NCBI RefSeq assembly: GCF_001308875.1
Contig: NZ_KQ465112.1
Span: 62,001-126,000 of the forward strand
Length of the DNA: 64,000 bases
Origin: Lysinibacillus sp. ZYM-1
GTDB taxonomy: Bacteria > Bacillota > Bacilli > Bacillales_A > Planococcaceae
Direction of reading: 5' to 3'
In this document: positions 10,257 to 63,925 of the stretch, in pieces
Numbering within the stretch: position 1 is the stretch's first letter
Layout of the letters: each line of letters opens with the position of its first letter
Notes under the pieces: model-generated
Databases searched by the model: none
Seen by the model: the letters and a program-made list of their open reading frames with translations, nothing else
Told to the model about the DNA's origin: nothing
Made by a program: the position numbers and the translations under genes

Positions 10257-10856
10257 TTATTTCAATCCTCTTTCATGTAAATCGCATTCCGAGTTTTCTC
10301 TTGGGTAGTTGTACCAATAAGCGAATTCATGGGTATATTTACTCGTTGGGTTTTTGTCCATAAGTGCACAATTAAAATCCCAATCGCCCGCGATATCCTT
10401 ACGAATGGTAAACTTTGCATCCCCGATAAAGCTTCTTCGAATGATTTTAAATTGTCCGGGCAATGAGTAGCGATTTGATTCATCTTTAATAAACCCATAG
10501 CCATTTTTGATGATCATGTTGTAATAATAAATATCAAATTCACCATCCACTTGTGCTAATACATTGCGGATGGCAGGTAAATAGTGGTCATCACTATCGA
10601 TGATGGCAATATAATCACCTGTTGCCTCAGCTATGCATCGATTATAGGCAACACTTGCACCGAGATTCGTTGGATGAACGATGATTTTTAAAGCTGCGCA
10701 GTTTTTTTGATAGTTCTGTAAAATGGCTAAAGTATTGTCTGTGGAGCCGTCATCTACAACGATAATTTCATAGGCATATTCTTTAGGAATACTGTCAAGC
10801 ATTGTTAAGATCCATTCTTCGCTATTAAACGCAGGTGATAAAAAGCTTAATTTCAT
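10257..10856 (-). CDS. Short family 2 glycosyltransferase
   Basis: 199 residues, all within the GT-A fold. It starts MKLSFLSPAFNSEEW with GGAGGGATAAA upstream of the ATG. Nucleotide and metal binding is indicated by VVDDGSTDNT (about 34-43) and IIDSDDHYLP (the DxD-like motif). No C-terminal membrane helices are present, unlike many GT2 enzymes, and the protein is shorter than the usual 250-350 residues. It may be a soluble single-domain transferase. It is the first gene of the minus-strand unit, and the gap to the dehydratase is about 47 bases. Donor and acceptor are unknown. Confidence 0.88.
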   Translation of the reverse strand: MKLSFLSPAFNSEEWILTMLDSIPKEYAYEIIVVDDGSTDNTLAILQNYQKNCAALKIIVHPTNLGASVAYNRCIAEATGDYIAIIDSDDHYLPAIRNVLAQVDGEFDIYYYNMIIKNGYGFIKDESNRYSLPGQFKIIRRSFIGDAKFTIRKDIAGDWDFNCALMDKNPTSKYTHEFAYWYNYPRENSECDLHERGLK

Positions 10857-61861: not shown

Positions 61862-61899
61862 TGAGAATCATTATCAACTAGCGAAAATTCTGTTAAACT
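61862..61899 (+). promoter_or_regulatory. Fur box and promoter of the AraC-type gene
   Basis: TGAGAATCATTATCA (61862-61876) matches the 7-1-7 Fur consensus TGATAATNATTATCA at all but one position. It overlaps a promoter of TTATCA (61871-61876) and TAAACT (61894-61899) with a 17-base spacer. Iron should repress the downstream gene. Confidence 0.85.
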
Positions 61900-61942
61900 A
61901 GAGGCATGTCAATGGTTAATCTAGAAGGAGTGCTAGAGCTCA

Positions 61943-63925
61943 ATGAAATTAAGCGATCATATACTTTTATGGAATCACGCGTATATTAAAATAATGGATA
62001 TACGTTTTATGAAGATGGAACAAGGAGAAGCTTTTGGCCCGTATCGATTGCCAGCAAATGCTTTTCTTTATACTAAAAGAGGCGGTGCTCAAATATGGAT
62101 TGATAAAAATAGCTATTTGGTACAGACCTTTCATGTTCTGCATGCAGGAAAAGGGGTGTGTATACGGATTGTAGCGGAGAAGGAATTTGAATATTATATG
62201 ATTTTCTATAAAGCAACGCTATCATTACCAAAGCGGCAAGAAATTGTAGCTTTATTGGAAAACGACAATCCGTTCCGATATCAGTATGCTTTTGCGCCAG
62301 CTAACCCACTTACACTACTTGATAAAGCGGAGCAGATGAATATAGTTTGGTTGCAATCTGATGATAAAGAGTTGAAAAATTTACATATAAAATCTTTGTT
62401 TTATCAATATGTCTATGAATTATTCCGACAAATGCACACACAAGGGATTCACCCAGTAAAGCAAGATTTAGTCACAGAAGCAGCTCGTTACATAGAGGAA
62501 CATTATCATATGCCTTTGACGCTTGAAAAATTGGCTCAGGAATTATCATGTAGTGTTGGTTATTTATCAAAGCTGTTTAAAGAAAAAATGCATACGAGCC
62601 CGATTCATTATTTGGGTGCAATACGTATAAAACAAGCAGCGAAATTACTAGTACAAACAGATGCGACATTGCAGGAAATTGCCGAGCATGTCGGCTATCC
62701 CGACGGCTATTCATTAAGCCGAAGCTTTAAACGACATAAAGGCATATCTCCAGTTCAATTTAAAGTAGCGTGGAGACAAAAACGCCAAGGTGAAGATGAA
62801 GAATTGCCACTTTGGAAAAGAAGATATGCTATTCTCCCTCATAAAATCGAGTGGTATATTGATGATGAAATTGAAAATCATTATCAACGAAAGGGAGCAA
62901 GCGAAATGTATAAGTTTAAAAACATGAAGGTAACGGCCATGACGTTGCTTATGTGCCTATCATTGTTACTAGCAGCATGCACAAATGCAACAAATACAAA
63001 CGGCGCCTCACCAGCGGCAAATCAAGTAGAAACAAAGGCGAATAGTGGGCAAGAAGTGATGCAAGAAGGAAAAACAAGAATTGTTTCTACGCCAAGAGGG
63101 GATGTAGAAATTCCAGCACAACCACAACGTGTTGCAGCTGACCAATATATGGGACAACTTTTAAAGCTAGGAATTATTCCAATCGGTGTCCGTGAAGGAA
63201 TGTTAACGGAAGGGTGGATAGAAAAATCAGATATTCCTCAAGAAACACTAGATAAAATTGAAAATTTAGGTAACTTTCCAATGAACCCCGAAAAATTAAT
63301 TATGTTAGAGCCAGATTTAATCATTGGGTCGATTGAGAAAAACATTGAACAATATGAAAAAATTGGAACAACGGTTTTTATCCCCTATTGGGAAGAACTT
63401 TCAACTGCAGGGCCTTTGGAAAAATTCAGAAGAATTGCTGAAGTATTTGGAAAAGAGCAGGAAGCGGAGCAATGGATAGAAGAATATGAACGTAAGGTAG
63501 AAGATGCTCGAAAACAAATAGATGGCATCATTAAAGAAGGCGAAACGGTGTCAATCGTGCAATTAAGCCCTACAGGTTTGTTTGTGTTAGCTGCTGAGGG
63601 TGGGAATTATGGTAGTAATACCATTTATCAGATGTTGAAATTACCTCCGACAGAACAAGCATTAAATATGAAAGAAGGCTTTGAAAATATCTCATTAGAG
63701 GTGCTACCAGAGTATTTAGGTGATCATGTATTCGTCTATGTGAATTCGCAGGAAGATGCAGAAGAGATTTTGAACAGCCCAATCTGGCAAGGAGCCCCTG
63801 CTGTGAAAAATGGCCATGTTTATATGTATGGTGAATTCGATGATGAATTTGTGATGGAAGATCCGTATTCTTTAGATCTTCAACTTGAGAAAATTGTCAA
63901 AGTTTTATTAGAGAAAAAGCAGTGA
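61943..63925 (+). CDS. AraC-type regulator joined in frame to a siderophore-binding lipoprotein
   Basis: 660 codons. Residues 1-170 form an AraC-like ligand-binding part. Residues 176-278 carry two helix-turn-helices (LTLEKLAQELSCSVGYLSKLFKEKM; LQEIAEHVGYPDGYSLSRSFKRHKGISP). A linker (279-321) follows. From Met322 there is a complete lipoprotein with lipobox LLAAC (Cys346) and a Peripla_BP_2 Fe-siderophore-binding domain (RIVSTPRGDVEIPAQPQRVAA; LEPDLIIGS). B. subtilis Btr is also AraC plus a FeuA-like domain, but it is cytoplasmic with no lipoprotein signal. Here the full ORF would place a signal sequence mid-protein, so two products are likely. Confidence 0.85.
   Translation: MKLSDHILLWNHAYIKIMDIRFMKMEQGEAFGPYRLPANAFLYTKRGGAQIWIDKNSYLVQTFHVLHAGKGVCIRIVAEKEFEYYMIFYKATLSLPKRQEIVALLENDNPFRYQYAFAPANPLTLLDKAEQMNIVWLQSDDKELKNLHIKSLFYQYVYELFRQMHTQGIHPVKQDLVTEAARYIEEHYHMPLTLEKLAQELSCSVGYLSKLFKEKMHTSPIHYLGAIRIKQAAKLLVQTDATLQEIAEHVGYPDGYSLSRSFKRHKGISPVQFKVAWRQKRQGEDEELPLWKRRYAILPHKIEWYIDDEIENHYQRKGASEMYKFKNMKVTAMTLLMCLSLLLAACTNATNTNGASPAANQVETKANSGQEVMQEGKTRIVSTPRGDVEIPAQPQRVAADQYMGQLLKLGIIPIGVREGMLTEGWIEKSDIPQETLDKIENLGNFPMNPEKLIMLEPDLIIGSIEKNIEQYEKIGTTVFIPYWEELSTAGPLEKFRRIAEVFGKEQEAEQWIEEYERKVEDARKQIDGIIKEGETVSIVQLSPTGLFVLAAEGGNYGSNTIYQMLKLPPTEQALNMKEGFENISLEVLPEYLGDHVFVYVNSQEDAEEILNSPIWQGAPAVKNGHVYMYGEFDDEFVMEDPYSLDLQLEKIVKVLLEKKQ
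62872..62886 (+). promoter_or_regulatory. Internal Fur box inside the coding sequence
   Basis: TGAAAATCATTATCA matches the Fur 7-1-7 consensus except at one position. It encodes the peptide ENHYQ of the linker. A weak promoter (TTGATG at 62859-62864, 17 bases, TATCAA at 62882-62887) overlaps it. It lies 20 bases before the internal lipoprotein start. Confidence 0.72.
62906..63925 (+). CDS. Embedded Fe-siderophore ABC transporter substrate-binding lipoprotein
   Basis: 339 residues from ATG 62906, in the frame of the AraC-type ORF. AAAGGGAG (62890-62897) is 8 bases upstream, an ideal ribosome site. The protein begins MYKFKNMKVTAMTLLMCLSL followed by LLAAC, a full lipoprotein signal (Cys25), then a low-complexity spacer and a Peripla_BP_2 domain. 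A Fur box precedes it. Independent expression as a surface siderophore receptor is the best reading. Its permease and ATPase genes are not in the window, which ends shortly after. Confidence 0.72.
   Translation: MYKFKNMKVTAMTLLMCLSLLLAACTNATNTNGASPAANQVETKANSGQEVMQEGKTRIVSTPRGDVEIPAQPQRVAADQYMGQLLKLGIIPIGVREGMLTEGWIEKSDIPQETLDKIENLGNFPMNPEKLIMLEPDLIIGSIEKNIEQYEKIGTTVFIPYWEELSTAGPLEKFRRIAEVFGKEQEAEQWIEEYERKVEDARKQIDGIIKEGETVSIVQLSPTGLFVLAAEGGNYGSNTIYQMLKLPPTEQALNMKEGFENISLEVLPEYLGDHVFVYVNSQEDAEEILNSPIWQGAPAVKNGHVYMYGEFDDEFVMEDPYSLDLQLEKIVKVLLEKKQ

Follow-up and report, generated by a model that had tools for sequence, protein, structure and literature searches.

Does an open reading frame (ORF) in which a regulator runs on into a siderophore-binding lipoprotein yield a single protein, or does it hold a second gene, with its own control, in the codons where the two halves meet? 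The question is raised by the last ORF of a 64 kb stretch of Lysinibacillus sp. ZYM-1 (contig NZ_KQ465112.1; the whole stretch that was analysed is called the window below), which on open-frame reading joins an AraC-type regulator and a siderophore-binding lipoprotein in one forward-strand frame of 660 amino acids (aa; positions 61943-63925). The initial annotation had placed a complete lipoprotein gene inside this frame, and that reading holds: the 660-aa frame is open, with an ATG at 62906 followed by the lipobox LAAC, which gives a nested gene of 339 aa (62906-63925; forward strand, as are all features below) whose start codon is conserved in the lipobox-bearing clusters of relatives. It seems probable that the locus is a nested sensor-receptor gene, i.e. 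that the long protein would sense a ferri-siderophore and, with Fur off, activate a nested promoter for an exported receptor that shares its ligand-binding domain.

A Fur-like box at the junction

The Fur box was taken as its 7-1-7 consensus, TGATAATNATTATCA, from which two places at this locus differ by one mismatch each, as had been noticed from the letters: TGAAAATCATTATCA at 62872-62886, in the linker between the two halves, where it is translated as ENHYQ, and TGAGAATCATTATCA at 61862-61876, 5' of the whole ORF. A third Fur-like place with at most two mismatches occurs in the 64 kb only at 10522 (2 mismatches), and the count within the window alone is not beyond chance, because three or more places were found in 10 of 100 shuffles of the window.

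The comparison of relatives was based on 150 long open frames, which fall into 56 clusters when grouped at 70% identity; all but one of the frames (149) match the profile of the family along its length. A lipobox is present in 53 of these clusters and was recognised in 145 single ORFs, L064 falling outside the 145 because the lipobox pattern missed its LNAC; 20 control regions were kept apart from the 56 clusters. The junction box is, by definition, the linker 15-mer that fits the consensus best; among the possible start codons of a window, that with the strongest Shine-Dalgarno (SD) sequence was taken, with the background handled in the same manner. The helix-turn-helix (HTH) end was set by a regular expression, which makes the linker limits approximate.

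In all 56 clusters the best linker 15-mer lies in one common frame, with 0 mismatches in 21 clusters, 1 in 16, 2 in 12, 3 in 6 and 4 in 1. A box with at most two mismatches is therefore present in the linker of 49 of the 56 clusters. At other places in the same frames, windows of equal length have one in 10 of 436 cases, and all ten of these are the first window of their frame, where the open frame extends toward the upstream promoter. The 145 single lipobox ORFs carry boxes with 0, 1, 2 and 3 mismatches in 45, 49, 37 and 14 cases (131 with at most two), all in the same frame, and among the control regions a box with at most two mismatches was found in nine of ten unbroken, lipobox-bearing fusions. 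By comparison of relatives, the junction box is far beyond chance. The upstream box is common as well (at most two mismatches within 170 nucleotides (nt) 5' of the model start of the long ORF in 43 of 56 clusters), and Fur is predicted to act at both.

Silent sites and peptide

A different explanation would be that an ENHYQ-like peptide is conserved as protein and that its resemblance to a Fur site is accidental. The commonest box peptide, DNHYQ, does recur in 12 of the 53 lipobox clusters, and synonymous recoding of the peptide with the ORF's own codon use already brings the box to a mean of 2.55 mismatches, compared to 4.99 after codon shuffling. The observed mean is 1.11, however, which differs strongly from synonymous recoding when pooled over clusters (Fisher p ~1e-9), and the peptide comes in 29 variants over the 53 clusters (e.g. 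DNHYQ, ENGYQ, DIDYQ and ENHFQ). Codons that end in T or C take T over C 163:1 in the box, versus 4335:1845 in the rest of the same ORFs (53 clusters); choosing the best 15-mer as the box tilts its counts slightly toward T. Where the GC content is at least 0.46 (13 clusters), the ratio is still 36:1 in the box, against 795:673 in the rest of those ORFs.

Synonymous divergence within clusters is a less biased test, in that only the first member of a cluster chose the place of the box. Pooled over 19 clusters, it amounts to 0.450 in the AraC part and 0.440 in the substrate-binding protein (SBP) part, to 0.228 in the linker before the -10, 0.193 in the -10 region and 0.141 in the SD region, and to 0.016 in the box. 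It is zero in the box of 15 of the 19 clusters and reduced in L003 (0.167 vs 0.442) and L175 (0.146 vs 0.224), and it is not reduced in L006 (0.286 vs 0.291) and L187 (0.200 vs 0.209); around the box the dip extends, with gaps, from about codon -27 to +14. Because silent sites are frozen at the junction while the peptide varies, it is the DNA rather than the peptide that is conserved there, and a purely peptide-based conservation is practically inconceivable. The proposal that ENHYQ is a translated Fur site under selection as DNA is thus supported, including its suggestion that the silent sites of these codons be compared in relatives, where they proved to be conserved.

Promoter-like elements in the linker codons

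A promoter pair had been suggested at the junction. A generic promoter scan of the window listed no promoter there, and the pair is recognised only through the relatives, aligned on the -10, because its -35 is weak (TTCTCC, 17 nt, TATATT). The -10-like TATATT (62855-62860) is read as Tyr-Ile and lies 11 nt before the Fur-like box. An in-frame TATANT begins 5-20 nt before the box in 38 of the 53 lipobox clusters, where it encodes YI, YS, YN or YT, and just 5' of the box 40 of 45 Y[ISNT] dipeptides are encoded by TATANT, versus 93 of 368 elsewhere. The alignment of these 38 clusters shows a -35-like hexamer, set off from the -10 by 17 nt (first three positions T 97%, T 97% and G 79%; TTCTCC at 62832-62837 in the window gene), together with two copies of approximately AT-NN-[TG]-CC-A-T. 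In the window gene these copies are GAATTGCCACT (distal half, 62801-62811) and GATATGCTATT (proximal half, 62823-62833, overlapping the -35), and they form a putative AraC-type operator.

In the self-comparison of the 38 clusters, the repeat gives a peak at offset 22 with 7.13 of 11 matches (z 11.2), the other offsets from 8 to 60 having a mean of 2.68, a standard deviation of 0.40 and a maximum of 3.82. Because 22 is not divisible by 3, the two halves are read in two different frames. A distal half is more similar to its own proximal half (7.13 of 11) than to those of other genes (5.95; p 3e-5), i.e. the repeat is paralogue-specific. Third-position divergence, counted in 11 clusters of at least three members with TATANT, is 0.028 in the distal repeat, 0.065 in the proximal repeat plus -35, 0.006 in the box and 0.000 in the -10 (a value that leans on the cluster's first member, because TATANT was the entry criterion), compared to 0.224 in the spacer between -35 and -10, 0.238 in the AraC part and 0.246 in the SBP part. 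Because the binding elements are nearly fixed and the spacer is free, this is a promoter-like footprint.

In the genome of ZYM-1 the tandem pattern of the window gene has one exact match, the junction itself; at up to three mismatches there are eight places (one exact, one with two and six with three), and a reversed control pattern gives five. No raised repeat was found 5' of the whole ORF, where the score hardly differs from background (12.84 of 22 on average over 38 genes, vs 12.49 in 256 control windows). Direct repeats that lie two helical turns apart and overlap the -35 are typically activator sites in the AraC family, for which reason the likeliest binder of the repeat is the encoded protein itself. 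The tandem repeat and the -35 thus point to control by the AraC part, which goes beyond what the initial annotation had observed.

The two products could also be made with the nested promoter under Fur only, the repeat then being another regulator's site or an accessory element and the long protein acting elsewhere. Indeed, no element is as uniform as the SD and the start codon (53 of 53 lipobox clusters), the repeat is hard to make out in clusters without TATANT, and seven of the 13 stand-alone SBP genes that have a Fur-like box show a TATANT before it. At the 12 stand-alone SBP genes tested, however, the offset-22 score is not raised (the split locus L237, discussed below, was left out of these 12, its row having measured the box 5' of the AraC ORF rather than the SBP promoter), and a repeat that is spaced by exactly 22 nt, placed over the -35, nearly frozen in its third positions, specific to each paralogue and without another exact site in the genome is hard to reconcile with Fur as the sole regulator. 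This explanation is considered quite unlikely.

Nested start and signal peptide

The ribosome site that had been proposed before the ATG was found as AAAGGGAG at 62890-62897 (duplex energy -8.9). A nested start is present in all 53 lipobox clusters (52 ATG, 1 GTG), 14-24 codons before the lipobox Cys, and an anti-SD duplex energy of -7 or lower was obtained in 50 of the 53, versus 147 of 1021 background windows. In the window gene, motif and predicted helix indicate a lipoprotein signal peptide at 62906-62980, the codon of the Cys to be lipidated being 62978-62980 (residue 346). With its Peripla_BP_2 fold, start, SD, n-region, h-region and lipobox Cys, the nested gene has the features expected of a siderophore-binding lipoprotein, and its product would be exported.

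A second Cys stands exactly eight residues before the lipobox Cys in 32 of the 53 clusters (e.g. LCLTLLLSAC; codon 62954-62956 in the window gene). Of 12 stand-alone SBP lipoproteins in the same genome, none has a Cys at this position and two have one elsewhere in the signal.

The signal peptide may have a meaning for the long form too, which could be a type II membrane protein with AraC inside, the signal peptide as anchor and the SBP domain outside, signalling across the membrane or being cut at the lipobox by signal peptidase II, such that one translation product would give both forms. The internal segment is a signal peptide complete with its lipobox, its predicted helix (residues 325-345) is of moderate confidence, and the fusion is rarely broken, all of which would suit a membrane protein. 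Taken alone, it leaves the conserved promoter elements, Fur-like box, SD and start codon unexplained, as well as the joint loss of box and signal peptide in seven fusions (see below). A membrane-anchored long form is rather unlikely, and, being compatible with a nested sensor-receptor gene, it overlaps with the latter in its odds.

Maintenance and apparent loss of the nested arrangement

Homologs whose junction lacks the box, which the initial annotation had named as a way to contradict it, do exist; they are seven fusions, all of them also without a signal peptide, plus the lipobox-bearing L240. In the seven (L230-L236), boxes are at chance level (5-7 mismatches) and there is no raised repeat. 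In the linkers of L183, L190 and L247, which have no lipobox and no longer carry the signal peptide, the decayed operator, -10 and box are still spelled as peptide (e.g. NPSGLSPSFI..LYS..ENGSHSQ), and these linkers appear to be fossils of a nested promoter. In the tree, the 11 fusions without an intact lipobox fall inside the signal-peptide group with three label changes; bootstrap support is not settled, and the root is unsure because only one distinct Btr-type sequence passed the filter, on a long branch. The series from nested to vestigial to erased elements would seem to reflect nested sensor-receptor genes turning into plain fused sensors.

It could be argued that the fusion is incidental, i.e. 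that these are neighbouring genes minus an intervening stop, of which only the short lipoprotein and an ordinary, C-terminally extended AraC regulator matter. L237 is a truly split copy, with an AraC ORF (open frame of 369 aa) and, behind it, a lipoprotein gene of its own whose TATATT, Fur-like box, SD and ATG follow one another as in the fusions, and the linker is disordered in the structural model, as an incidental fusion would allow. Searching 24 genomes with the AraC half as query, however, placed 104 of 106 matches in open frames of at least 587 aa (one with an internal TAG), the remaining two being the split L237 and the frame-shifted L238; the genomes were hand-chosen, 23 of them because fusions were already known, and the 104 include members without signal peptide. 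The ratio of nonsynonymous to synonymous change (pN/pS) is 0.21 in the AraC part, 0.13 in the SBP part and 0.54 in the linker, the last not being a clean measure because the silent sites of the linker are constrained too. The fusions without signal peptide, moreover, stayed fused, as in Btr, the AraC-SBP one-component regulator of bacillibactin uptake in Bacillus. The in-frame fusion itself thus seems to be maintained, and an incidental origin is very unlikely.

The frame that precedes the split AraC gene of L237 (open from 868) has the peptide DNNNHYQLKV over TAATAATCATTATCA, i.e. a Fur-like box is read through in frame there as well.

Proposed mechanism and points against it

For a nested sensor-receptor gene, the sequence elements suggest the following course. 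When iron is scarce, Fur would leave the upstream promoter, as the upstream Fur-like box implies, and some long AraC-SBP protein would be made from the SD-like AGAAGGAG (61923-61930, read directly from the sequence). Its SBP domain would bind ferri-siderophore and thereby switch the AraC part on, by analogy with Btr and other AraC-type regulators. The AraC part would then, going by the anatomy of the DNA, bind the direct repeat within the codons of its own gene, whose halves are two helical turns apart and which overlaps the -35, and activate the promoter in the linker codons, provided that Fur is also off the box just 3' of the -10. The nested transcript would finally give the short lipoprotein (with its conserved start, ribosome site and signal peptide), presumably exported as the receptor of a FecCD-type importer. 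Because the ligand-binding domain would be read twice from the same DNA, the specificities of sensor and receptor could not drift apart.

Several points weigh against this course of events. Binding of the repeat by the fusion's own AraC part is deduced from spacing, position and exclusiveness, and the sensor domain may lie outside the cytoplasm, owing to the hydrophobic signal peptide in the middle of the protein, in which case the sensing step would be different. TATANT was not found in 15 of the 53 lipobox clusters, and in eight of these 15 (L006, L007, L083, L100, L102, L173, L194 and L197) the box lies 58-64 nt from the start without a clear -10 or tandem repeat; their nested promoter, if any, would have to be built differently. 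As regards the box, 14 of the 145 lipobox ORFs carry three mismatches, L240 has a lipobox and a best 15-mer with four mismatches in another frame, and partial boxes are found where the lipobox is missing (L183, L190 and L247, with 2, 2 and 4 mismatches) or has lost its Cys (L199, with 4). Silent changes do occur in the box in 4 of the 19 clusters, and synonymous recoding is strong only when pooled, the median p per cluster being 0.16. All p-values are rough, because within-cluster pairs and related clusters are not independent.

Distribution, protein domains and gene neighbours

The genome of ZYM-1 has seven full-length fusions, of which the other six are 28-40% identical to that of the window over nearly the full length and free of internal stops; Fur-like boxes with at most two mismatches lie both 5' of the ORF and at the junction in all seven. 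Relatives of the fusion occur in 19 of 32 genomes of the genus, 23 of 200 of the family and 41 of 398 of the class (11 of 145 genera). Numbers of fusions per genome are lower bounds, because few candidates were scored per genome (the best three class-wide and the best six family-wide). A scan of named genomes with one protein gave eight loci with seven full-length matches, and the named relatives are 76-90% identical in Lysinibacillus and 56, 59 and 67% in Paenibacillus.

Pfam places HTH_18 at residues 197-273 (E 2e-19) and Peripla_BP_2 at residues 402-630 (E 1.4e-23) of the window protein. The AlphaFold2 model of the whole protein (alignment of 51 sequences; mean predicted local distance difference test score (pLDDT) 86.6, predicted template modelling score (pTM) 0.48) has two confident domains, namely a strand-rich N-terminal part plus HTH, and the SBP. 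Residues 296-327 and 347-374 are disordered, with the helix 325-345 between them at moderate to lower confidence. Foldseek matches the second domain to FtsB, FhuD2 and BSU3320 (template modelling score by target 0.83-0.87). NF049932 (NCBIfam), the family of Btr equivalogs, is the top family match for all four fusions scanned, with 92.5 bits for the window protein and 75-128 for three paralogues, at a cutoff of 900.

The genes downstream of the window gene encode a membrane protein that matches no Pfam family and an M20 peptidase, and the receptor from the window gene would have to use a shared permease. Downstream of the paralogue L007 are an ABC exporter-like protein, a FecE-like ATPase (below the FecE cutoff), two FecCD permeases and a pyridine nucleotide reductase. 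Because no SBP was found among these five genes, the SBP part of L007 is the likely receptor of the FecCD importer, for which it would have to act outside the cell. At L113:7043-8767, an ABC exporter-like protein (ABC_membrane plus ABC_tran) stands between a nested gene and its FecCD permease genes. A region of about 21 kb (G000:C13:87661-108674, loci L109-L110) holds three nested fusions, four shorter AraC-SBP frames (427-544 aa; Pfam was run on two of the four) and five separate SBP lipoproteins, and may be read as a siderophore sensor-receptor island.

Relation to known systems and implications

Like Btr, the window protein has an AraC half and an SBP domain in one frame (HTH_18 + Peripla_BP_2). 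The receptor of Btr, FeuA, is a separate gene and, to our knowledge, Btr has no internal signal peptide, whereas at the window locus a single SBP domain would serve both roles via the nested gene; the protein is also unlike the Btr equivalogs in its score (92.5 bits, far below the cutoff) and in its lipobox signal in mid-protein. In a study on B. pumilus, Btr (YbbB) is described as a protein that combines an AraC half with a FeuA-like binding domain; it is listed there under Fur and lies upstream of feuA (PMC3896406). The domain pair is in print too: in siderophore gene clusters, 229 of 6,023 Peripla_BP_2 genes have a co-occurring domain, which is HTH_18 in 98.7% of these, and the accessible part of that paper does not mention a nested gene, internal Fur box or signal peptide (PMC13293324). 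The AraC-SBP pairing is thus already known; no nested regulator-receptor gene was found among the literature matches listed, which covered few subscription papers.

The nested gene resembles stand-alone, Fur-controlled siderophore-binding lipoprotein genes (FhuD, FeuA and YfiY type) in its SBP fold (3hxp, 8xet, 4b8y) and lipobox, and in 7 of 14 stand-alone SBP genes examined TATANT, Fur-like box, SD and start follow one another in this order too. Unlike the fusions, those genes are not embedded in a regulator and lack a raised offset-22 score in the 12 tested. HTH_18 points to the AraC/XylS family, in which operators are typically direct repeats about two helical turns apart at or over the -35, and the repeat at offset 22 is a candidate for such an operator. 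The predicted Fur site (7-1-7, one mismatch, 11 nt past the -10) is as in promoters of the Fur regulon. One frame giving two products is known from in-frame internal starts (SpaO, AerR and pIGRK Rep); as far as the accessible parts of those reports go, the window locus differs in that its short product has its own Fur-type promoter and a signal peptide to another compartment, and in that the operator of the long product apparently lies in the same codons.

A wider picture is possible rather than probable, in which the Bacilli have a large family of self-contained nested genes, each expressing one ligand-binding domain as sensor and as exported receptor, with operator, Fur box, promoter and ribosome site in its own linker codons; the long form might sit in the membrane via its internal signal peptide, read the siderophore outside and be released by signal peptidase II, and some fusions might later have lost signal peptide and nested promoter to become Btr-like cytosolic sensors.

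Annotation of such a locus as one regulator of 660 aa would overlook the receptor along with its promoter and control, and the nested design is not rare (106 AraC-half places in 24 genomes, mostly fused). If the reading as a nested sensor-receptor gene is true, the locus is a clean case of a coding sequence, a regulatory sequence and a second gene being written in the same codons, with selection on them that can be measured, and it suggests how paralogous siderophore sensors and receptors may keep matching specificities, i.e. by being the same DNA.

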